A stretch of 64,000 nt of DNA from positions 1-64,000 of the forward strand of contig RBZT01000753.1 in assembly GCA_003693705.1 (NCBI GenBank), in the 5' to 3' direction. The notes beneath the pieces were generated by a model that ran no database searches, was not told where the DNA came from, and saw only the letters and a program-made list of their open reading frames with translations. The translations under genes and the position numbers were made by a program. The stretch comes from Polymyxa betae (Eukaryota > Endomyxa > Phytomyxea > Plasmodiophorida > Plasmodiophoridae). Below are positions 3,777 to 47,142 of the stretch, piece after piece; positions within the stretch are counted from its first letter, which is position 1; every line of letters begins with the position of its first letter.

Positions 3777-5049
3777 ATGACAAAATGGCCAGATTTAAAG
3801 GAGTTGGCGAATCGGGCGTTACAGCCTGGGATGCCATCCAGGACTAAGACGCGCGTTTGGTCGCGTTTGGAGTTGGCATTGGGTGAGGCCAGCGCGAACG
3901 AAGTGAAGGAGATCCTCGAGCTTCAGGAAGCTCTCGATCTTAGGAAGCATTCTCAGAATACTGCTGGACTATTAGAAGCACTCTGGGTTGCTTTTAAGCT
4001 GTTAGTGTGTCTAATTACAGTTCTAGTGCTTGCTCCAATAGAGATAATTGGTATTTATATGAGGTAAATTCTATTATGGTTTAATCAAATATATAGTGTC
4101 GCCTATCGCGTATTTCAATCCACTCTGGAAGAAGCTCGGTTTAAAAAATAACACCCTTCCTACTGAGATGCTGCAGTTATTAACATTTCGTTGGGCTTGC
4201 TGTTGTCTTGGTTTACAAGTAATCTGATTCTGATTGTCTCCTCAAAATCTGCCTAAATTATTGCTAGATTTGTACCGAAGGCGAGGAGCAGTTGCCAGAT
4301 ACGCCAATGATTTTCATGTATTCTCACGCTTCCAACCTGGATCCGATTGCCATCGGTGCTGTCACTCCTTTTCCGCTCAAGTTCATCGCCAAACGCATTA
4401 TATTTTATTTCCCGGTCTTGGGATGGTTATTCAAAGCTTATGGTCATATACCTATTGACCGCGCTAATCGCGAATCGGCCATTGAGTCGCTTAAATTCGC
4501 TGCAAGAAACGTGTGTCGCTCCAATGTTTCGATCGCAATTAGCCCAGAAGGTTTGCTGATTCTCGCGATTTATCTGGTCCCTCATCCAACTTCGAACATT
4601 CTTCGCCATCTTCGTTTTGCTAATGTTTAAGAATTTAATGCAGCCAAATGATGAGTTTCTTAGGCACGAGAAGCGTTTCGGGACACCTACAATCCTTCAA
4701 GAAAGGTCCATTTTATCTGTCGAGTCGATCACGACTACCGATCGCTCCAGTCGTGATTCTTAATGGATACGACAGGATGCCACCTGTTGGATATCAAGTT
4801 CCCCGCCCTGGCCGGATTACTATCCGCTACATGAAACCGATAACCGCCCACTTGGATGACCCCAATCTCGAAGTCGATGAATTATCCCGAATCGTTCGCG
4901 AGACGATGCTTCGCGGATTGGCTCAGGATGACGACGAGTCATTGCCAAGGAAAGTGTACAATTTCTATGAACCACTGTTTACCATACTTCCAGCAGCTCT
5001 CATTGTTATATATCTCTTTATACATCTCTACCTAAACAGATATTTCTGA
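3777..5049 (+). CDS. Membrane-bound 1-acyl-glycerol-phosphate acyltransferase family protein (PlsC/LPLAT)
   Basis: Four exons (3777-4050, 4097-4218, 4268-4550, 4664-5049) join in frame to 354 residues, ending TGA. The protein transfers an acyl group from acyl-CoA to a lysophospholipid, probably in the ER membrane. The family's HX4D motif is intact in SHASNLDPIAIG. The second block, SPEGTRS, is assembled exactly across the third intron. A hydrophobic segment near residues 80-95 and a C-terminal one (ILPAALIVIYLFIHLYL) suggest membrane anchoring at both ends. The first intron boundary could be 13 bases further on, but only the chosen one keeps the frame. Acyl specificity (LPA, LPC or other) cannot be read from the sequence. 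The next gene is convergent, 33 bp away. Confidence 0.88.
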
Positions 5050-5082
5050 TAGTTACACAATGAGGATTATCCATGAATTTTA

Positions 5083-8000
5083 TTAATCTTCGTCGCTTTC
5101 GGTTTCTTCATCATCGGATTCTTTCAAATATTCGATTAATTCAGAGGCCGATTGAACAAATTGTTGATCGCTATCCTCTAGGTCAGCCCACTCTAGAATA
5201 GCTTCCCCTGAAATTGCATCCAGTTGATATAACGCCTTCAGGGCGAAGGGGAATAGCAATCTATGGAGTGAATCAAAAGCAATTCGACATGAAGCGAAGC
5301 AGGCATACCGGTATGGTTTATCTTCGCATTCACATGCCTTAACAAGCCCACGAATGAAGAGAATGTGGTTTTCGTCGGAGCCTTGGCCGTATTTCTCTAG
5401 CAAAAAATTGTACTCACGAAGCAACCTGCTCAACGACTTTAGAACCGCAGTAGAAGGTTTCTGTGATTGAACAGGCGCTGGCTCGATCAAGTCAAAAACT
5501 GTTAGAAGAATGCAGGAGGCGTAAGTCGTCAGGCTGGCGTTGTCAGCGATCTTCAAATTCGCAACCTAAGAAAGGAGTTGATTCGTAAGCAGAAAATTAA
5601 CAATCAAAAGAACTGGCAAAAACAAGGCCTACTTCCAGAAGAATGTCGCTTTTATCAGCGATGTCTTGCTCTCGACATCGCTCAATGGTGGCTTTGATTT
5701 CGCGATAAAGGACGCTGGCGTTGTAGCCTTCTTCATCCCAGGCTGAGTCATCAACACCTTCCACATCGCTAACTTCACACTCGTCATCGCTGCCGAATGT
5801 CATCAGCGAGTCGTTATCGTCATTCTCGTCGCATTCCAACTCCGCAATCCTTTCGTCCTATTCCAACATCAGCAGCGGAAAATGGATTATTGGTTAACGA
5901 ACCCTGAACGCAATGGCGTCCTTATCAGGCGCCAACGAATTGCATGATATTCGGGCCAGCCTTAATCGGTCGATATCGCTCTGTGGTAGATCCTCCTCTT
6001 CCTCATCTAACATTTCCTCCACAGCATCGTCTTCATCGCCGGTATATAAACAGCCCGTGCCTACGTAAAGGATTATGGAAACAGCAATAAAAAGAGAAAT
6101 GCAACAATAACATGAAACGAAGTCAATTTCGAGTTAAACCAACGTAATCAGAGAAAACACAGGAATACAACAAATTGATTACCACCAAGTCCAAGGTCAA
6201 AAGGTGTAATATTGGGATCTTTGCCATCATCAGCCGAGTCAGTATGCCCAATACGAAGACGATCCAGTCCCATATCATCGATACCGAATTCGTGTGCAGG
6301 TCGTCTCTGGATGGGAACCCAGAGCTTTGTATAAGGCGGAATCTGAACGCCTCTTCCAATCTGAACACCTTCACCGACAATCGTCCCGCGACCGATATTT
6401 ACATCGCTGCCGATCTGGACATTTCGGGCGATAATGGCGCGATCGATAACTGTCCTATCCCCAACGGTGCTACCCGACCATATATAGCTACCTATAGACG
6501 ATTTAATCAAAGGCATCTTTGCATGTGAACCTTTTGATTCAAATGTCAACAGATCACAAATAAACCAAAAACGAATAAATAGAAGGAGAAGCACATAGGT
6601 AATGGTCCAGCATTACCAGTGCAGTAGACATCATCGCCAAGAGTAACGTTCCTATCGATAACGGTATCTTCGATGTAGGTTCGGGTCCCGATCTGGCAAC
6701 CACCGCCGATCACAGTATTACGCTTGATAACGGCCGACTGTGCGATTCGGGGCGTCGTCGTACTGGTCGAACCGATCTCCTTGTAAATGTGCAGCCTTTG
6801 GGTCGAATAGGCCGGTCTGGGGCCTAAACCATCGACCGAGAACCTTGATCCATTGCAATTCAGCAAACTATAAATTAAAAATTTTGGGAAACTTTAAACA
6901 ATCATCAGAGTGAAAAAAAAAGCTCTGAAAGCTTTCGGGAAATAAAACAGACATATTCAAGTAGATCCATACCCGAAAGCCCAACGTTCAATAATGTCTC
7001 GACTAACAGAATCGTATGTCTTCAGACAATCGACACGAGCGGCGTATTCATCATGTAGCAAATGAGCATAGACAGACGTGCTCATGATAGACGATCCCAA
7101 AACCTAATTGAGATGAAATCATTTTTTAATCGTTGAGGGAAGTATCCGAATGGGGCGAATTTGTCTGTCAAATTCTCGGCAGAAAAAAAGCGGACCTGTG
7201 AGAAAAAATCGGTCTCGATGTTCTGCAGGTCGAACTGGTCATTGAACAGGGTCAGTACGGCGGGCGAGCACACATAGATGCATGTGTTAAGCAGATCTTT
7301 GTGAAAAGTGACAATCGGGTTGTCGATCATGATATCAACATCGGCAACCAGACGCGATCGGCTCGATAACGGATTCTGATAGCCCAAGACTTTCTGGGAA
7401 GGCGATGCCAATGCCACCATCAGATTATCGCCATCTGCAGATGAAGAATTTAAAAGAAACCTATAGAAAAGAAGAAAGCAGATGAACAGCGTTAAAGGAA
7501 GAATAAAGGCAAGATAAAAGGCAAATGTCGTTCGCCACAATGACAAAAGAAACCTAGAGCATTGCCTGAGATTTGCTTTGAACAAAGATTGAGCGAATAG
7601 AAAGCGCGATTTGGAACTTAGCGATACAATAATAATAACAGAGAGAATTCATAAAATAATTGTTGACTTGAGCGAATTCGATGTTTAGGGGCAGCACGCT
7701 TTAAGACAACCGTCATGATGGCTTCAGGATCGTCAGCCGCACGTTTCTGATGGGCGGTGATGATATGATCCATATCGAGATCGGCGATGGTATCGGCACC
7801 CATGTAGATGAAGAAATCAGAGCGAATGATCTCAAGCTGATGGATGTGGCGAAAGACGTCACCGATGCTGGTGCAATTTTCGTTCACCATCAGGACGGTC
7901 ATTCGCATTGACGACAATGACGACCGAAGTGATTGGCAATATTCGCGAATCACAGCTGGGAACGCACGAACCACGATAAAGCATTCCTGGACGCCAGCCT

Positions 8001-14684: not shown

Positions 14685-17600
14685 TTAATTATCCTTTTGC
14701 AAATTGCTTGAACACGCGACAGGATCGTCACTGTCCATCAGCCGACAGAGATCAGGATTGTCGAGACGTTCAAGAATTGCTTTAAAATTAGGACGACGGT
14801 CTGGTAGCTGATGCCAGCAATCGGTCAAAAGCGAATACAATGGATGCGCCCGAAGCTCATCAGTGACATGCGGTCTGAGACCGTTGTTCACAACTTCCAA
14901 AACGATCTGCATCATCTCTTTATCTTGATACGGCTCCTCCCGCGTTAAAATCTCCCACATTATGATCCCGAAAGCATACACATCAGCTGATTCAATTGAG
15001 TCAAACAACGACTACATAAACTGCAGCCGAGTACCTTTCTCAGTGTATTGCTCACCAGAGCAAACTTCAGGACTCATCCAGATTGGGGTTCCAACCTGAG
15101 TCATTTTCTTCTTATCGTCCATGAACCGGGTAAGGCCGAAATCGGCGACTTTGACGTTCCAATTTCGGTCAACTAACAGATTGTCGCTCTGGTTCGTGTG
15201 TTTACAAACCATTAAACACGATGTGTTTCTGAGAATACCTTAAGGTCGCGATGTAAAATCACAGGATTACTTGTATGCAGGTAATGCATCCCGCAAGCGA
15301 TGTCCTTAATGAACTTGAGAATGATGCGGTTTGAGGTCACAAAAGTTCGATCAGCAAGCAGCTGAGCCAATGAGCCACGAGCACAGAATTCAATGATGAT
15401 GCAAAGATCGGGAGGTTGAGTAATGGCTCCTTTAAACTCGATCACGTTTGGATGCTTCAGCTGGCACATCAACGAGGCCTCCGAGCAGAATGCGTCGATC
15501 TGCTCTCCCTTCAGGGTTTTGATAAAAATCTTCTTGACAGCGACGATCTCTCCCCGAGCCTTTGCTAGCCAAACCTCTCCATAGGATCCTATGCCAATTC
15601 TGCGGCTCATATGGATCTCGTTCACATTATACGCATATCGATCGATCTCATGACCTCCTAATTGCATGCCTCGGTCCCTCTGAAGGTATTCAGCTGTAAT
15701 CTCGTCCTGTTTACATGTGGCATCATCCATCACTCGAATGAACTTGCGAGAATTGGAAAGAGCAACAGCAGCTTGGGCGCAGAAAACGGCAAGCAGAGTC
15801 TCTTCTTCTTTTCCAAATCCTCCCTTGTCAGTTTCGTCTTGCACTGATATTAGACCAAATACCTGATTCTCACCAGTTATTTCATCCTGTGCAACAATCG
15901 GCATGCAAATAATGCTGAAGAAACTTAGCGAGTTCTCATCCCAGACGGCTAATTGGACATACCTCTCGCAAGGTGCTCCGTTCGAGTCGATTATCGACTC
16001 GTACCTGTCATCTTCTTGAGCGCAGCTCTGGATTTTAACAGCTTGTGCTGTGCGAGCAACCCAACTACCATAGATAGGTCTAAGCTCTCTATGACAGAAA
16101 AGCTACAATATATCTAACCCGCTTATGCCATAATCCAGACTGAGACGATCCGATTCACTCCCGTTCTCTAACCTGTACATATATCCCTTCTCTGCTTCCA
16201 CCACCTGAAACAATTCAAGAGAAGAACATTTGGCTTGTGTGACATACAAAAAAGAAACAGTGATTCGCTTTCAAGAGATCACTGAGCTGGGACTGCATCT
16301 GGAACATCAGGCTTGAAGTTTGTAGCTCACTCGACAGATTCTTCGTGACATTTAGCATGAATTTCAAATTTCGAACTTGACGTAGGGTTTGATTTAGTGC
16401 CCTCTCAGTCTCTTGATATAAACGGCTATTGTTGATGGCTACAGCTGCTTGAGCTGAAAACGCACCCAGCTGCTTGACGTCATCGTCGCCAAAACTTAAA
16501 CCATGACGTTTGTTGATGACTTGAACGACGCCCACGATCTCGTTTTTGTGATCTTGAATCGACATGCACAAAATATTCCGAGTTCGGTATCCGGTTTCGA
16601 TATCCATTTTTCGAGAGAATCTTGAATCTGCGTATGCATCTGGAATGATGAGGGTCTGTCCAGTCATAGCAACATGTCCAGCAATGCCTCGATCCATTGG
16701 AATCCGAATAATGTCTTCGGTTTCGTTATTGATAGGTAATCTGAGGCCGTCACCATACGACATCGACGATCTTGTGTATAGTTCATTTCGGGAATGATCA
16801 CAGATAAACACTGTGCATCGTTCGACATTGAGCAATTTCTCAACCTGAAGCAGTATGTCAGAGATGATCGAAAACAGGAAGAGTCGTACTTTCTCCACAA
16901 TGATTTGTACCAAAGGGACCAATTGGAGTTCGCGAGAAAGAGCTTTCGTAACTTCCAGGATCGCATCGCTTTGCGCTAGAGATTTCTTAACATCAGTTAG
17001 CAACCTCGAATTCTCAACTGCTATGGCCGCATGAGCAGCGAATGTCTCCAGCAGATCTTCGTCCGCTTCTGTAAAAGTCCCAAATCTCGGGTCCTTGTTA
17101 ATAGCTTGAATAGCACCGACGATGATTCCTTCGCTAGTCTTCATGGGCATGCAGACGATATCGCGGCTTTTGAATCCGGTCAAACGATCCATTTCAGGAT
17201 TGAATCTCGGGTCTGAATGAGCGTCCAGAACTTTTAGCTTATCACCACTGGTCACAACGTATCCTGCTATTCCTTTATCCATTGGCATGCGAATCTCATT
17301 CATGTTAGATTGGAAAGGCAAGTCTGGAGCAGGACGTTTCCCTCGGACCCAGTCAAGAAAGCTCAGTTTGATTCCATGGCTGGCTTCTTTCCAGACAATA
17401 AGCTCGTTAGTGGCGCGATCGACCAGAAACATTGTGCAACGTTCAGCTCGAAGAAGAACCTGAACTTTGTGGGTCACCAACGAAACAATCCCTTGTATTG
17501 TGGTCTGCGATGATAACGCACGAGCCACTTCTAAAAGCGCCATGGACTGGTTATGCTGCTCAATCCCAGTCGCAGCTAATCTTGTAGTAGACTCCAATTG

Positions 17601-18167
17601 CTTGCTTATGGCCAGAATATGACAGATACATTCTGCTAATAGAAGCAATGATTCAGCATGGTCTTGGGAAAAGCTTCCAGAATTGTTATTTATCGCCCTA
17701 ATTACAGCAAGTACCGGGAAGTTATCGCTGCCTGAATGTAAAACAGGAACGCATAGAGCAGATGCTAAATTGGCTCCATCAATATCTTTGGCATAGGCTT
17801 CATGGAATTCAATCTCGCTTCTAGAATTCAGAATTAGAGGTCTTCCATTAGCAAACACGTGCCCAACGATTCCATGACAATTTTCAGGCACATTGCCGTT
17901 GTGCCGAACAAAAATTTGTGCCGATTCACAGCTAACAAGAGAGGCGATTTCGGAATTCAGCACAGTTGCCATGCGCTCAATATCCCATCCAGAACATTGT
18001 AGTAACTGTTGTGTCAAAGTCATGACACGACGAATGGCGCTAGAATCCTGAATCCGATTGACATTAACGGGAACGTGTTTTTCTGCATTCGATGATGAGT
18101 TTCTGAAAATTAGATTCGATATTGAGCTGGCCCGTCTAGATCTAGCCATCTTGAATTCAGATAACAT
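14685..18167 (-). CDS. Multi-GAF-domain tyrosine-kinase-like (TKL) protein kinase
   Basis: The first exon reads 650 codons from 18167. Four GAF domains can be seen: SCESAQIFVRHNG, AERCTMFLVDRAT, VERCTVFICDHSR, then a fourth split by introns and ending GLISVQDETDKGGFG. GAF domains bind cyclic nucleotides or other small ligands. The C-terminal kinase is complete: glycine loop IGIGSYGEVW, lysine in VAVKK, catalytic HRDLKSDN built across an intron, DFG, activation segment GTPIWMSPEV, and ADVYAFGIIMWEILTREEPY built across another intron. It ends TAA 66 bp from the convergent CARMIL-like gene. A 45-nt in-frame intron probably lies near 16.8 kb. It is probably a ligand-regulated cytosolic signalling kinase; the ligand is unknown. 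Confidence 0.85.
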
Positions 18168-42339: not shown

Positions 42340-43018
42340 ATGGGTGGTTACAAGCAGGGCCCTGCTTTCAGCAAGGATCATTGCACTGAATTCGGTCTGA
42401 AAATCACTGCCAGAGATCCTGAAAGCCAGCGTGTTATTTCTGTTCGCTGTGAATTTTGTGTTTATTCTGGGAGGGAAGAAAATGTTGGTGGGAAACGCAA
42501 GCGGACCACCAACGTCAAGTACTTTGAAAAGTTTCGGCCGCAATACTATAAACAGCATCTCATGCTACAACATCAATCTGATTGGGAACAGTATCAGCTA
42601 TGTTCTGTTGAGGAGAAGCGACAATATTTCGAGGGCAAACAGAATCTTCAGAATACCCTTCTTCGACATTTCGAAAATGAAGATACGCTACGGTTCCATG
42701 TAAACTGTGATATCGTTGATGTTATCATCGGAGATCTCTTTAATCCTGACGATGATGAAGTTGCTATGTCTAGAGAAAGAGCTTTAACTTTCTTCAAACG
42801 ATCTGATTCCCAAGATCATCAGCATTCTCAAGATCAGAGTTATACGGTCGAGATTAAATCGACGAAGTTATTTCGACTATCTATTCGATTTGTGGCTTCT
42901 GGAGCGACCTTTCGAATGGCTTCCCGTTTGATTTCTGACACCAAAGACGAAACTGGCTTGAGCTTCCTTGCTGGCTGCAACGAAGGCCGTATTTCCCAAT
43001 TCGTTAAAGTTGTAGTTG

Positions 43019-43557
43019 AAAACCAGAGTGTCATTTTCAGAACTCAAACCAAAAAATGACACATTATAGGGTCTTATAACGTGTCAATTTAGAATTTATT
43101 CTCAAAAATGACGCATTAAAAGACCTTTTAATAATGTGTCATTTTTTGGTTTGAGTTCTGAAAATGACACTCTGGTTTTCTACTCTGGGGCGTGATTTTT
43201 GAGTTCAATTTTCAAAAATGACAACAGATTAATCCGTCCAGTCTCATAGATTAATCCCTCGTTGAAATCAGATTTAAAAAATGACAATATATTACTATGA
43301 TATTTATTTATAATAATCCTTATATTTTCGTGCCAGGCAAGCGTGCCAGGCAAACCCCCTTTCGTGCCAGGCAACCCCCCTAAAATGCCAGGCAAGAATT
43401 CCGAAAATCGGCGAAAAATGCCATTTTCCCATACAAAAATGACCTCGTGCCAGGCAAAGCGCTCGTGCCAGGCAAAATCAGCGAAATCGCACAGAATAAA
43501 AAAATTTTATATCACTTCCACGTATTCATCAAAATATTAATCAAAATAAACCCACCG
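43019..43557 (+). repeat. Left terminal inverted repeat of the AT-rich element
   Basis: The outer 161 bp (43019-43179) form a palindrome with 49-bp perfect arms (43019-43067 and 43131-43179) and an imperfectly pairing centre. The rest contains AT-rich DNA and six copies of the 9-bp palindrome TGCCAGGCA (43330-43475). The inner edge is AATAAACCCACCG. It matches 45369-45926 in inverted orientation with few differences. Confidence 0.9.
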
Positions 43558-43617
43558 CGACATAGATATTATTACGTTATTTGAGGAAAATGTTGAAAAT
43601 GATAAAATGATTAAAAT

Positions 43618-43917
43618 ATGTCTATTAATATAACTGAATATGAGGATATGATATCAAATCATAATTGGATTAGCAGTATAAAAGTAATACATCCAGATGG
43701 GCACATTATAAAAGAAATAAAACCACGATTGGATTTCGATGAAGAATATATAAAAGAACGTGATAAAAAACTTGTTTCAAAGTATATCAAAAAATTAGAA
43801 TATTTCAGTAATCAAAGTTTAGATTTAGATTTATATAATATTCAGATATGTAATTCATTTAGAAAAACATTAATCAAAAATATAATAAACTTACGAATAG
43901 TTATAAATGGGAGTTAA
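43618..43917 (+). CDS. Small AT-rich ORF in the mobile element, unknown
   Basis: The 99-residue product starts MSINITEYEDMISNHN and is rich in Ile, Lys and Asn (for example KKLEYFSNQSLDLDLYNIQI). The next frame begins 3 bases after its stop, a virus- or plasmid-like packing unlike the host genes. No motif is recognised. Confidence 0.5.
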   Translation: MSINITEYEDMISNHNWISSIKVIHPDGHIIKEIKPRLDFDEEYIKERDKKLVSKYIKKLEYFSNQSLDLDLYNIQICNSFRKTLIKNIINLRIVINGS

Positions 43918-43920
43918 ATA

Positions 43921-44100
43921 TGTACCAAGACACAAGAAAAGAACTTATAGATGAATTACAAAAATTTATAAGAGTTATTAATGAAATTAGAAAAGAAAAT
44001 TATTTAAATGTTCACAAACAAAAATATCAAAATAAGGAAAATGTTAAATTATTAAATTTAAATAATGATATAACAAATTTAATTAAATCATTCTTCTAAA
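43921..44100 (+). CDS. Small AT-rich ORF in the mobile element, unknown
   Basis: The 59-residue frame starts MYQDTRKELIDELQKF and looks entirely helical, rich in Lys, Asn and Leu. It starts 3 bases after the stop of the previous frame, suggesting co-expression. No family is recognised. Confidence 0.42.
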
Positions 44101-44250
44101 TAAGGAAAACGATGTTTTCAAAAATACAAAAAAACTGAATTTTTGAAAAAATCTTTAAATAAATAAATAGATTATATTACGTTATTCTACATATAGAAAT
44201 AAAACGGGGGGAAATATTTAAAATAAAAAAATACTTCAAAATAATAATTA

Positions 44251-44472
44251 ATGTTTAATAACAAAATTGCTCTTATTTTTGATGTTGGGGTAAATTTCTT
44301 TTTAGTAACCCGAAAGAATGAAGATTATGAAATTTCTGAAACGAGAAATCAGAAAAGACAAATCACACATTCAATTGATAAATCATTAAAAAAATTCTTC
44401 AAACAAGTAGGAGGGGAAATTGAAATTAATGATATTAATAATGCTTGTGATGATATATATATATATTATTAA
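44251..44472 (+). CDS. Small AT-rich ORF in the mobile element, unknown
   Basis: The 73-residue frame starts MFNNKIALIFDVGVNF, a hydrophobic beta-like strand with an Asp, followed by basic helical sequence (SIDKSLKKFFKQVGG) and an acidic end. An additional 35-codon frame (44475-44582, MGDKRVKEVKDFKFDN) follows 2 bases after the stop. No family is recognised. Confidence 0.42.
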   Translation: MFNNKIALIFDVGVNFFLVTRKNEDYEISETRNQKRQITHSIDKSLKKFFKQVGGEIEINDINNACDDIYIYY

Positions 44473-44717
44473 AAATGGGTGATAAGCGTGTAAAAGAAGT
44501 AAAAGATTTTAAATTTGATAATATTCTGATGCCGAAGAGAATACATGTAGCATTACTCCAATTAAAAGAATTCAGTGTTTAGCGAAAAACAAGGAAAAAT
44601 ATATTAATTCTAAAACCTTAATTTTACGTTATTTACGGAAAATATTTAATTGAAAATATTGTGTCATATTTTTGAAAAAATTAATATTGTTAGAAATAAA
44701 AATATTGTATTATTATT

Positions 44718-44788
44718 GTGATTGTAGTTAAATGGTATAATATTGGTTTGTGGCGCCAATGTTCTGGGTTCAATTCCCAGCAATCACA
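44718..44788 (+). tRNA. tRNA-His (anticodon GTG) inside the AT-rich element
   Basis: A full cloverleaf can be drawn: 7-bp acceptor stem (GTGATTG/CAATCAC), D stem GTTA/TAAT with a GG-containing loop (AATGGTA), anticodon stem TTGGT/GCCAA, loop TTGTGGC with anticodon GTG at 44750-44752, variable loop TGTT, and T arm CTGGG-TTCAATT-CCCAG. The discriminator base is A. No intron is present. The shape is closer to organellar, bacterial or viral tRNA-His (GTG-start, AT-rich arms) than to typical nuclear tRNA-His. Some giant DNA viruses carry a tRNA-His; whether this one derives from such a source or from a mitochondrion is open. Confidence 0.85.
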
Positions 44789-44868
44789 TTTTAAATAATT
44801 TTTAGGGAGGTTGTGGTGATTATTGTTATTGTTATTTTGAATTAAATTTGAGTTGAAATAAAATTTTC

Positions 44869-45207
44869 TCAAATTTGTAACATACATATAATTTCATTTT
44901 TAATATCATTAGGCAAATTCATATTTTTCATCTGTTTAGAATAATATTTTTTCTTAAATTGTTTCTGTATTTTGATTATGGAATTCAAGGTGTTATCATA
45001 TATTTTTTGTGTAATTTTATGTTTATGTTTCCAATATGTTATTTTAAAGTTTCGAATGCCAAGATAATCCTCCCATAATCCACCTGCTATACCAAACCAA
45101 TAGTAATCAAATACATAACTCATTATTCGTTTTTCAATACAATTATCTATATCACAATCATCGGGAAAAGACCTTGATTTATGTTTTTGACAAAGATAGA
45201 ACGCCAT
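44869..45207 (-). CDS. AT-rich ORF in the mobile element with IQ-like helix, unknown
   Basis: The 112-residue frame has an aromatic N-terminal half (MSYVFDYYWFGIAGGLWEDY), then IIKIQKQFKKKYYSKQ, resembling an IQ calmodulin-binding helix. It ends with LPNDIKNEIICML, a pattern seen in F-box-like or giant-virus small proteins. It is the only convincing minus-strand frame of the element. A recent protein-coding gene is likely from its length in such AT-rich DNA; function unknown. Confidence 0.5.
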   Translation of the reverse strand: MAFYLCQKHKSRSFPDDCDIDNCIEKRIMSYVFDYYWFGIAGGLWEDYLGIRNFKITYWKHKHKITQKIYDNTLNSIIKIQKQFKKKYYSKQMKNMNLPNDIKNEIICMLQI

Positions 45208-45368
45208 TTAATGTAAGTATCTATTTATATTTTAAATATTTAAATTAAAATAATGTATTATAGTAATTATGATAATGAATAAATTAAATACAAATACATA
45301 TATCCTTGAATGACGCCATGGGTTCAATTCTGGGTCCATGAACATTATCCATTTAATTCATGGTGTGT

Positions 45369-45926
45369 CGGTGGGTTTATTTTGATTGATATTTTGATGA
45401 ATACGTGGAAGTGATATAAAATTTTTTTATTCTGTGCGATTTCGCTGATTTTGCCTGGCACGAGCGCTTGCCTGGCACGAGGTCATTTTTGTATGGGAAA
45501 ATGGCATTTTTCGCCGATTTTCGGAATTCTTGCCTGGCATTATAGGGGGGTTGCCTGGCACGAAAGGGGGTTTGCCTGGCACGCTTGCCTGGCACGAAAA
45601 TATAAGGATTATTATAAATAAATATCATAGTAATATATTGTCATTTTTTAAATCTGATTTCAAAAATTACAAATGACGGATTGAGAGGGATTAATCTATG
45701 AGACTGGACGGATTAATCTGTTGTCATTTTTGAAAATTGAATTCAAAAATCACGCCCAGAGTAGAAAACCAGAGTGTCATTTCCAGAACTCAAACCAAAA
45801 AATGACACATTATTAAAAGGTCTTTTAATGCGTCATTTTTGAGAACAAATTCTAAAAATGACACGTTATATGACCCTATAATGTGTCATTTTTTGGTTTG
45901 AGTTCTGAAAATGACACTCTGGTTTT
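45369..45926 (-). repeat. Right terminal inverted repeat of the AT-rich element
   Basis: This is the inverted copy of 43019-43557. It carries the same hairpin tip (45765-45926, 49-bp arms, one or two substitutions) and six TGCCAGGCA sites (45445-45595). A few small indels account for the length difference. It is followed by GTAC and then the second TAGTTG. Confidence 0.9.
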
Positions 45927-47142
45927 GTACTAGTTGTTGTTGCTGTCAATCATCAGAAGCTCTACGAAATTCTAAAAAGACAATGGGCATTCTCGATTGC
46001 TCTTGACGCCGGAAATAGCAGCTGGAGCAATTATTTCGACATCCGCATAAGATTCTACGAGCAGAACCAGCTCTTCAACATGCACTTTTTGGCACTCCCG
46101 ATGCACGCAAGGAAGACGACAGAAAATTTGTTTGAAGTGTCCTCAAAGGCATTAGACGTTGTTGCGCCTGAATGGCGAAAGAAGTTGATTGGTATAAGCA
46201 CAGATGGGGAAAATACCATGACTGGACGTTTTCGAGGCGTTGCGACTCGATTTCAGAATGCTGTGGAAGGGAACGATATCTGGCGAGTTTGGTGTGCTCT
46301 CCATCAAGTGGATTTAGTCGTTCAAGAACAATACAAGTGTCTTCTAGATGGAAACTTCTTGGACGTTTTAATCAGTTTAATCGGCTACCTCCGACGACAG
46401 CAAAATCTGATTGCGGAAATGGGTACAACATGCCCAAAACTGATGCTGACCCGCTGGGCGCACATGCATCGATCCACTTAATGGTTTGTTGATCATCGCA
46501 TCTCGGTGCTAGATTATCTAGCTCTAAAAAAGTCTGCATGCACGCCCAGTAATTCATGGTAAATCGATCCCTTTACCGATACAATTTTTTAAATTTCTTT
46601 AGGTGGATTGTTTTGCACGCCTTGAATCGTGTTACAAAAGTTGTTCTCGCGACTGTTACCCGCCTTCAAGGCATGGCGACTTTGATATTACAGCAAAGTC
46701 GACAGATTCAGGAGCTAGGTGTGAAGGTCTGTGAATTGTGCCCAGTGGAAGGCCCTCTTTCTTTTCAAGAAGCTTTGGAAACATCTCAGCATGATTGCGG
46801 TTTTGTTATTGTGGGAGCACACCGTGTGGATGTTAAAGATTCGCAGGCGTTTGTTGAAGACCTTGGCTCTCACGTGATGGAATCCATGCGCCAGTTGCCT
46901 TCTAACGAGGTCCAAGTAATTGCATTGTCCGTTGCCAGATTATTCGCTGGTGTCGTCGATGGTGTGGCTAATGTTGTCTCCGAAAGAGACGCTGCAAATG
47001 ATCCTTCACATCAGAAACTACCACCAGTCACCCCGCCTGAGCTCGTTAAGCTACGAGGATCAGAATTCGGAAATATCATTATCCAAATGAAACCGCGCTT
47101 GAGGCGGAACGGAATGTCTGATGTTGATATCCAGAGGCGGAG

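Follow-up and report, generated by a model that had tools for sequence, protein, structure and literature searches.

The window, a 64-kb stretch of Polymyxa betae DNA, carries a gene that is interrupted by an inserted element of 2918 bp (Table 1). An earlier note on this DNA had recognised an element of about 2.9 kb, which is real but whose bounds are here corrected to 43014-45931. A scan for 5-8 bp repeats adjoining matching inverted termini yielded a single 6-bp pair, AGTTGT, besides one 5-bp pair located within the terminal inverted repeats (TIRs), and AGTNNAAAACCAGAGTGTCA is the start of all six termini compared at five loci (both ends in the window, and contigs C541, C239, C259 and C432). 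The split gene is a member of a multicopy family within the assembly, and both of its halves are matched by 13 other contigs. The spacing at the junction was compared in 11 of these (C303 and C394, in which the 5' matches end far from the junction, were left out) and equals that expected from an AGTTGT duplication exactly in eight, the eight whose matches reach the junction. The duplication proposed earlier, TAGTTG (43013-43018 and 45931-45936), is shifted into the element and was rejected, since it predicts a spacing 6 nt too long for these eight paralogues and is at odds with the termini starts; the claim of an exact 6-bp duplication thus stands as to length and exactness, but not as to sequence. 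In C420, C348 and C71 the spacing fits neither parse exactly. The element is foreign in composition and was inserted as a unit, and the codon spacing of the paralogues agrees with the restoration of the reading frame upon its removal. The description of the interrupted gene as hAT-like is not borne out, no Pfam family having scored above cut-off for it.

Table 1. Features of the split gene and the inserted element (positions in the window).
Feature	Position	Strand	Remarks
Split gene, 5' part	42355..43013	+	
Target-site duplication (TSD), left copy AGTTGT	43008..43013		Repeat scan and paralogue spacing
Whole inserted element	43014..45931		2918 bp; 5' AGT, 3' ACT; repeat/terminus scan and termini comparison
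Left TIR	43014..43557	+	544 nt
Left terminal palindrome	43014..43184		54-nt arms flanking a centre that holds a GTTATAAGACCCTATAAC-like and a ATTAAAAGGTCTTTTAAT-like smaller palindrome
Six copies of TGCCAGGCA	43331..43474	+	Within left TIR
Promoter-like motif AATRTTKAAAAT	43589..43600	+	Starts 29 nt before 99-aa ORF
ORF, 99 aa	43618..43917	+	No Pfam family
ORF, 59 aa	43920..44099	+	Directly 3' of 99-aa ORF; no motif upstream
Module common to C239 copy	44195..44457	+	98%; motif and most of 73-aa ORF
Promoter-like motif AATRTTKAAAAT	44213..44224	+	Starts 38 nt before 73-aa ORF
ORF, 73 aa	44251..44472	+	C239 form: 84 aa, different C-terminus
tRNA-His, anticodon GTG	44717..44789	+	ARAGORN; Rfam 66.9 bits (Rfam bounds 44718-44788)
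ORF, 112 aa	44869..45207	-	No homologue found
Promoter-like motif AATRTTKAAAAT	45229..45240	-	Starts 33 nt before 112-aa ORF
17-nt box GGGTTCAATTCTGGGTC	45320..45336	+	T-arm-like by eye; identical in related C235 element
Right TIR	45369..45931	-	563 nt
Six copies of TGCCAGGCA (reverse strand)	45452..45594	-	Within right TIR
Right terminal palindrome	45760..45931		Centre oriented as on left, relative to outer end
TSD, right copy AGTTGT	45932..45937		Repeat scan and paralogue spacing
Split gene, 3' part	45938..46478	+	In frame once element and one TSD copy are omitted

The hairpin-tipped TIRs, put at 540-560 bp by the earlier note, measure 544 and 563 nt; their arms align with 532 identical positions of 542 (10 mismatches, 4 gap events) and each is tipped by a palindrome of ~171 nt. 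As DNA, the left tip (43014-43184) forms one long hairpin of -69.2 kcal/mol (z -18.6 against 200 dinucleotide shuffles), and Rfam microRNA matches on the palindromes, all below gathering scores, are a reflection of this hairpin shape. The palindrome centre is oriented as in the window at five of eight scored termini (two of the five being the window's own) and inverted at the other three, a count that omits C405, C227 and C235, which were set aside as uninformative. The element thereby resembles hairpin-ended linear genomes, in which a terminal palindrome is able to fold back and the centre occurs in both orientations, but differs from them in that the inversion among copies is not clean: inverted centres are accompanied by remnants (11 extra nt in C541, extra half-arms in C239), and no flip/flop exchange free of remnants was encountered in the comparison of these two contigs.

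Between the TIRs, the foreign AT-rich composition described in the earlier note is borne out by a GC content of 22.5% (27.6% for the whole element), compared with 45.4% in the remainder of the window. The picture of small ORFs and a tRNA with no recombinase is likewise upheld by simulations, ARAGORN/Rfam and Pfam. The four longest frames (112, 99, 73 and 65 aa) reach lengths attained at their ranks in 0 to 0.5% of 1000 first-order simulations, and a Pfam search of the four element ORFs gave no family above cut-off and no recombinase or transposase family; pPolB, rve integrase, capsid, ATPase and protease were not recognised among them. The 65-aa frame lies antisense to the tRNA and is not counted as a gene. 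Neither the 112-aa ORF nor the 84-aa C239 form of the 73-aa ORF has a homologue among 5.8 billion proteins. The 99-aa ORF matches two PHROG families weakly, a virion structural protein (phrog_15872, E 0.0018) and a baseplate hub (E 0.063), and no weight is placed on either; its single-sequence structure model and that of the 112-aa ORF (mean pLDDT 47 and 45, respectively) are not usable. The window has three occurrences of the promoter-like motif AATRTTKAAAAT, each starting 29-38 nt before an element ORF. The C208, C131 and C366 stretches lack it, as do the ORFs adjoining the TIR in C239 and in C541; L040 and L027 have one occurrence each, with no matching gene start. The tRNA-His, which as a DNA query matched only itself, has A at the discriminator position and T rather than G at position -1. 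Tandem repeats in the element are short, the longest array spanning 54 nt.

The absence of any second copy, which the earlier note named as a finding that would refute it, is not what the assembly shows, since related TIR or tip sequence was found on 34 contigs. Two copies have the same TIR with partly different genes inside: outside the shared module, the interior of C239 differs from that of the window element and includes a Cys-rich 85-aa ORF, with a B-box match below cut-off and no match among viral contigs. On C428 there is a second element, of only 358 bp, whose terminal bases are inverted at 14 of 14 positions and which has an exact 6-bp TSD (CTCTTT), providing the further duplication of this length that had been sought; between related tips it holds an open frame of 51% GC that looks host-like. 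Palindromic tips standing alone are common in the assembly.

Key evidence as to the origin of the element came from the surroundings of these tips, which adjoin a virus-type domain in three (C131, C266 and C366) of the 28 loci examined, Pfam having been run on the frames of four of them (these three and C235). The C131 tip, 80% identical to that of the window over 123 nt (107 bits), adjoins Prim-Pol (PF09250, 6.7e-8) and PriCT_2 (3e-7), together with a DUF5906 match (7.6e-6) which at 27.0 bits falls slightly under the 27.6 cut-off. A tip lacking its outer arm adjoins Peptidase_S74 in C266 (1.6e-6), while a truncated one adjoins NUMOD4 in C366 (9.1e-7). PrimPol, S74 and NUMOD4 domains are also found in giant viruses and phages, and are therefore alone no proof of a Polinton-like virus (PLV). 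Neither a capsid gene nor a packaging ATPase was recognised adjoining the tips examined, and two PLV-like fragments (C208 and C469) have no tip within the stretches examined.

Taken with the TSDs, these findings suggest that the element is probably a miniature, non-autonomous offshoot of an AT-rich lineage of integrating DNA viruses of the Polinton-like (PLV/Maverick) type, fragments of which lie elsewhere in the genome. The earlier note had suggested a non-autonomous form derived from a Maverick/polinton-like or giant-virus element, which is in accord with related tips bordering virus-type genes, and the lineage would be one of PLVs rather than a giant-virus satellite. Since the element has no capsid gene, it is at most a derivative of an autonomous PLV, and the miniature presumably moved in trans. 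In such a scheme, its ends would be the cis-acting part (replication origin or telomere plus integrase site), while a full-length relative would provide primase-helicase, capsid and retroviral-type integrase in trans. The element might then replicate as linear DNA with tips folding back, and integration with a 6-bp duplication would return it to the chromosome; as cargo, the tRNA-His and the small proteins could be made during infection under the control of a virus-style promoter.

To say that no known family matches goes too far, because Polintons and PLVs have been reported with 6-bp TSDs, with TIRs several hundred bp long and, in a few members, with a tRNA-His gene. These TIR and TSD lengths are given for Maverick/Polinton elements in the accessible parts of two studies (PMC12747079, PMC8097293), and the element resembles such elements in its TIR length class, its 6-bp TSD and its first three bases, AGT. 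However, the likeness to the vertebrate Maverick end motif, given as (AGT)2//(ACT)2 or (AG)3//(CT)3 in the part available of PMC8097293, is partial because AGT is single, occurring once at six of six termini and followed by NN and AAAACC. Furthermore, Mavericks/Polintons are 12.7-24.6 kb long, whereas the element is 2.9 kb, no core gene was recognised in it and its terminal palindromes are strong. Helicase-primase variants of PLVs exist in oomycetes, as far as the accessible text of PMC7805220 goes. The Gossevirus/GKS1 PLVs of oomycetes, chrysophytes and cryptophytes are, like the element, integrated in protist genomes, and some are described, in the portions available, with TIRs and 5-7 bp TSDs, but they are 14-40 kb long with capsid genes, and the element has none. 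Its tRNA-His is a trait common to a few members of the GKS1 cluster: from the text at hand of PMC12220804, Aragorn found ten tRNAs in 1107 cryptophyte PLVs, including the tRNA-His of seven R. lacustris PLVs (cluster C3/GKS1) and of one in Storeatula. Truncated EMALEs (endogenous mavirus-like elements) of Cafeteria are shortened viruses that similarly keep TIRs at both ends. They measure 5-15 kb, and the element is both smaller and poor in genes; the word 'hairpin' is absent from the accessible text on EMALEs (PMC8547959). Searches of open-licence papers turned up no palindrome-tipped miniature of such a virus at the kilobase scale.

A transpoviron-like satellite, that is an episome of a giant virus (rather than a PLV) which uses the replication and transcription of the latter and is chromosomal by accident, seems unlikely. 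It would be in keeping with the small episomes known from giant viruses (PMC11788076, accessible text), with the NUMOD4 inside one related tip, with the Cys-rich C239 ORF and its sub-threshold B-box match, and with the motif common to three ORFs, which the C208 PLV-like fragment lacks. As portrayed in the available parts of PMC7031253 and PMC11788076, transpovirons are linear, with TIRs of ~0.4-0.5 kb (380-520 nt, near those of the element), few genes and virus-type promoters. Nevertheless, they are ~7 kb, encode a helicase, mostly have a central tandem repeat (180-600 nt, though absent in the pacmanvirus transpoviron according to the same portion of PMC11788076) and spread with giant viruses. 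The element, at 2.9 kb, has no helicase and only short tandem repeats, so that the resemblance drawn earlier fails on these counts, and a known transpoviron was rejected on the two defining features, helicase and internal tandem repeat. Moreover, the element sits in the chromosome between exact 6-bp duplications, and the second element has its own, which fits this scenario badly; such TSDs at two elements are a pointer to an integrase-using lineage.

Foldback elements and MITEs are non-autonomous and have long palindromic or internally repetitive ends. That the element is of this kind, having arisen from an ordinary DNA transposon of the host that captured viral DNA between its ends, has some appeal in view of the many lone tips and the host-like 51% GC frame in C428, but is more doubtful still: related ends border AT-rich virus-type genes at three loci (C131, C266 and C366), no transposase was seen beside the tips there, and the element itself has ORFs with no transposase family, an upstream motif and a tRNA. 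A mitochondrial origin, by nuclear integration of organelle DNA or of a linear plasmid from the organelle, to which the AT-rich interior and the tRNA gene might lead, is disfavoured and highly improbable given the TSD and the ends and module common to other copies in the assembly; cox1 was sought in the assembly and not found.

Within the PLV reading, a more specific proposal can be put forward tentatively. The element might belong to a class of PLV satellites, kilobase-sized linear replicons with parvovirus- or poxvirus-like foldback telomeres, their own promoters, a tRNA and small genes, which a PLV would replicate, package and integrate; the PLV may in turn depend on a giant virus, and satellites sharing telomeres would swap modules. 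Integrating PLVs are widespread across protist genomes, and we know of no established route by which the ends of primase-helicase PLVs, which have no protein-primed polymerase, are copied. How such ends are copied would become testable with termini that form hairpins, exist in both orientations and lie next to PrimPol pieces. Small passengers are known for phages and giant viruses; that PLVs have them too would be suggested by a 2.9-kb derivative still equipped with a tRNA, ORFs and promoter-like motifs.

The whole-genome search with PF09250 is insensitive, because it gave no match and thus missed C131 despite its hmmscan score (6.7e-8), and that with PF03175 (pPolB) gave no match, nor did its controls. 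There was no match in IMG/VR for exact TIR and tip patterns, among viral contigs for the PrimPol piece, or among viral contigs and phage records for the virion-protein-like gene; a separate search of phage records returned one weak 66-nt match. In favour of the PLV reading, the genome does contain an A32-type packaging ATPase (PF04665, 38.1 bits against a cut-off of 22.8) with one stop inside the match, and the gene beside it looks virion-like.

The AT-rich element lies within contig C359 (74,335 bp) of the Polymyxa betae genome (G000; 24.4 Mb, 541 contigs, referred to by C-numbers). Its GC content is 27.6%, falling to 22.5% in the interior, against 45.4% in the remaining window. It is framed by terminal inverted repeats (TIRs) of 544 and 563 nt, which align over 542 positions with 10 mismatches and four gap events and each contain TGCCAGGCA six times. 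At each end, the outermost ~171 nt form a palindrome with 54-nt arms (the tip), and folding of the left one gave a z of -18.6.

The earlier note had described an inserted unit flanked by a TAGTTG target-site duplication (TSD). The insertion and its duplication stand, but the bounds have to be shifted on account of a direct-repeat scan, common termini and paralogue spacing. A scan for 5-8 bp direct repeats beside inverted termini that match found a single 6-bp pair, AGTTGT (plus one 5-bp pair located within the TIRs), and AGTNNAAAACCAGAGTGTCA starts six termini drawn from five loci, namely the two ends in the window and those at C541, C239, C259 and C432, outside of which the DNA differs. The split gene belongs to a multicopy family: its 5' part has 25 matches and its 3' part has 22, window counted. 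Paralogues were compared on 11 of the 13 other contigs matching both parts (C303 and C394, whose 5' matches stop at residues 94 and 69 of 218, were omitted). In eight of these (C233, C276, C501, C277, C369, C212, C514 and C431) both matches reach the junction, with the spacing expected once the element and one AGTTGT are removed, which is 6 nt below what the TAGTTG parse needs. The other three fit neither parse exactly (AGTTGT/TAGTTG expectations in brackets): C420 has 113 nt (135/141), C348 has 62 nt (63/69) and C71 has 250 nt (252/258). TAGTTG is thus rejected. The description of the split gene as hAT-like is unconfirmed, since Pfam gives it no family above cut-off.

Positions of the features discussed (L-numbers are stretches taken from contigs of the genome)
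Feature	Source	Position	Length
Inserted element	window	43014-45931	2918 bp
Box GGGTTCAATTCTGGGTC	window	45320-45336	17 nt
Box GGGTTCAATTCTGGGTC	L016	371-387	17 nt
Small element with TSD CTCTTT	C428 (L051)	377-746	358 bp
PLV-like fragment	C208 (L033 8000-10000 and L034)	about 78000-81640	
PLV-like fragment	C469 (L040)	4656-6451	
PLV-like fragment	C139 (L041)	1-270	
Further inverted repeat, by eye	C208 (L034 1673-1805)	81672-81804	
Open frames with three GAF matches	window, host part	16215-18167	
Kinase piece after partial GAF domain	window, host part	15212-15904	

The element holds ORFs of 99, 59 and 73 aa on the forward strand and 112 aa on the reverse strand, along with a 65-aa frame antisense to a tRNA gene. 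In 1000 first-order simulations of the interior, ORFs ranked 1-4 reached the observed 112, 99, 73 and 65 aa in 0.5, 0, 0 and 0% of cases. None of the four counted ORFs (99, 59, 73 and 112 aa) has a Pfam family above cut-off; against PHROG, the 99-aa ORF weakly matches a virion structural protein (E 0.0018) and the 112-aa ORF has no match. All three AATRTTKAAAAT sites of the 64-kb window fall within the element, starting 29, 38 and 33 nt upstream of the 99-, 73- and 112-aa ORFs on the correct strand. Three or more arose in 0/500 simulated interiors, a figure that overstates the case because the motif was chosen after such sites had been seen. Including related elements, it precedes five of nine ORF starts tested (window 3/4, C239 1/2, C541 0/1, C235 1/2), the C239 site being homologous to one in the window. 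L040 and L027 each have one further site, in neither case with a matching gene start, and the C208, C131 and C366 stretches have none. The tRNA is an intact tRNA-His with anticodon GTG (ARAGORN, Rfam), whose discriminator is A and whose -1 position is T, not G; an A discriminator without G-1 is the cytosolic-eukaryote type, to which Thg1 adds G-1. A box resembling a tRNA T-arm by eye, GGGTTCAATTCTGGGTC, is present near the TIR of two different elements; ARAGORN finds no tRNA at either site, so these are perhaps decayed tRNA genes.

Searching the genome with the TIR gave at least 32 matches, and with the diverged C227 TIR at least 61; TIR or tip matches are spread over at least 34 contigs, the window's among them. 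The TIRs of C541 and C239 are 89% and 84% identical to the window left arm, and after them comes a Cys-rich ORF (85 aa long in C239) missing from the window copy, in a stretch 98% identical between the two, while C239 and the window have in common a 263-bp module with a 73/84-aa ORF (98%). Judging from these sequences, gene modules are mixed among elements that have the same kind of end. Neither copy is complete, the contig stopping within 1.1 kb (C541) or 1.5 kb (C239) of the TIR start. Among 15 of the 28 loci examined that were scanned for TSDs, only C428 has a clear one at matching ends: its small element ends in ACAAGTGATATTAT (inverted match 14/14) between exact CTCTTT copies, and inside it lies a GC-rich, host-like open frame (51% GC), possibly host sequence captured by a miniature. 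Matches in C84 and C264 fall inside their palindromes and 12/15 loci have none; by eye, C489 has a 5/6 duplication. Also by eye, L018, L019, L024, L025 and L047 have another end type, ACAAGGAGAC..., with the same palindrome motifs, the core palindromes being common to several end types.

When the asymmetric centre of the window palindrome was scored against other termini, it had the same orientation in both window ends, C131, C259 and C432, and was inverted in C541 (116 vs 53), C239 (104 vs 51) and C266 (60 vs 32; shuffle maximum 31). C405 (inverted 35, same 30), C227 (30, 34) and C235 (27, 51; lacking one motif) were scored but not counted. In its outer arm C541 matches the window at 53/54 positions, so the centre turned inside a single subfamily. 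It did not turn cleanly: C541 and C239 retain duplicated pieces, a pattern as compatible with repair by foldback or template switching at a hairpin end as with the textbook flip-flop described for poxviruses (PMC8956199). Possibly, the palindromes were misassembled.

Of the 33 contigs that match the TIR or tip apart from the window's own, 28 were examined (all but C170, C502, C344, C152 and C31). At three of the 28, virus-type domains were found directly inside the tip, Pfam having been applied to frames of C131, C235, C266 and C366. C131, whose tip is 80% identical to the window's over 123 nt and whose opposite end is missing, close to an N run, has Prim-Pol (6.7e-8), PriCT_2 (3e-7) and, slightly below cut-off, DUF5906 (7.6e-6) in neighbouring frames. 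C266 has Peptidase_S74 (1.6e-6) inside a tip without outer arm, and C366 NUMOD4 (9.1e-7) inside a truncated one. At C235 the frames are small and AT-rich, and no Pfam family matches the one tested; the remaining loci consist of a lone or incomplete tip, are interrupted by a contig end or N run, or had no frame followed.

Elsewhere in the genome, C208 ends in an AT-rich Polinton-like virus (PLV)-like fragment with an A32-type ATPase (PF04665, one internal stop), a frame labelled capsid by eye only and a 242-aa gene that we take to be virion-protein-like (penton). Its metagenomic homologues number 10, with identities reaching 69%, and two of three scanned gave a DUF5901 match below cut-off. Two IMG/VR scans gave no relative of this gene, while distant relatives lie in PLV-like fragments at the ends of C469 (30% identity) and C139 (23%). 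More than one virus type may, on this sequence evidence, be endogenous.

We propose that the element would be a miniature of a PLV-type virus, moved and copied in trans. This reading draws on the 6-bp TSD, which is what Polinton/PLV retroviral-type integrases typically leave (PMC12220804, PMC12747079), on PLVs integrated in oomycetes and a single fungus, of which seven have TIRs and three of those also TSDs of 5-7 bp (PMC7805220), and on tRNA-His, which seven Rhodomonas lacustris PLVs of the GKS1 cluster also carry (PMC12220804). Five oomycete PLV elements encode a helicase-primase and a tyrosine recombinase (PMC7805220); as such recombinases leave no target duplication (PMC12220804), the TSD argues for another enzyme here. 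No tip is seen within the examined stretches of the PLV-like fragments of C208, C469 and C139, so the virus is assigned to the PLVs on the basis of TIR length, the TSD and co-occurrence, to which the AGT start adds a little. The parent would then be a PLV whose integrase acted at insertion, and the element would replicate through its hairpins and express its cargo. Among open-licence PMC texts, the searches listed no PLV derivative of kilobase size that has palindromic tips. Nearest are truncated endogenous mavirus-like elements of Cafeteria (5-15 kb, with TIRs; PMC8547959), a 2-kb pacmanvirus episome for which PMC11788076 proposes excision from the viral genome, and Tlr elements, which an older proposal, contested in PMC4028283, regards as non-autonomous derivatives of Polintons.

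The further inverted repeat of C208, just after the PLV-like fragment, is unlike the element tips. The host part of the window also holds the GAF and kinase frames listed in the table.
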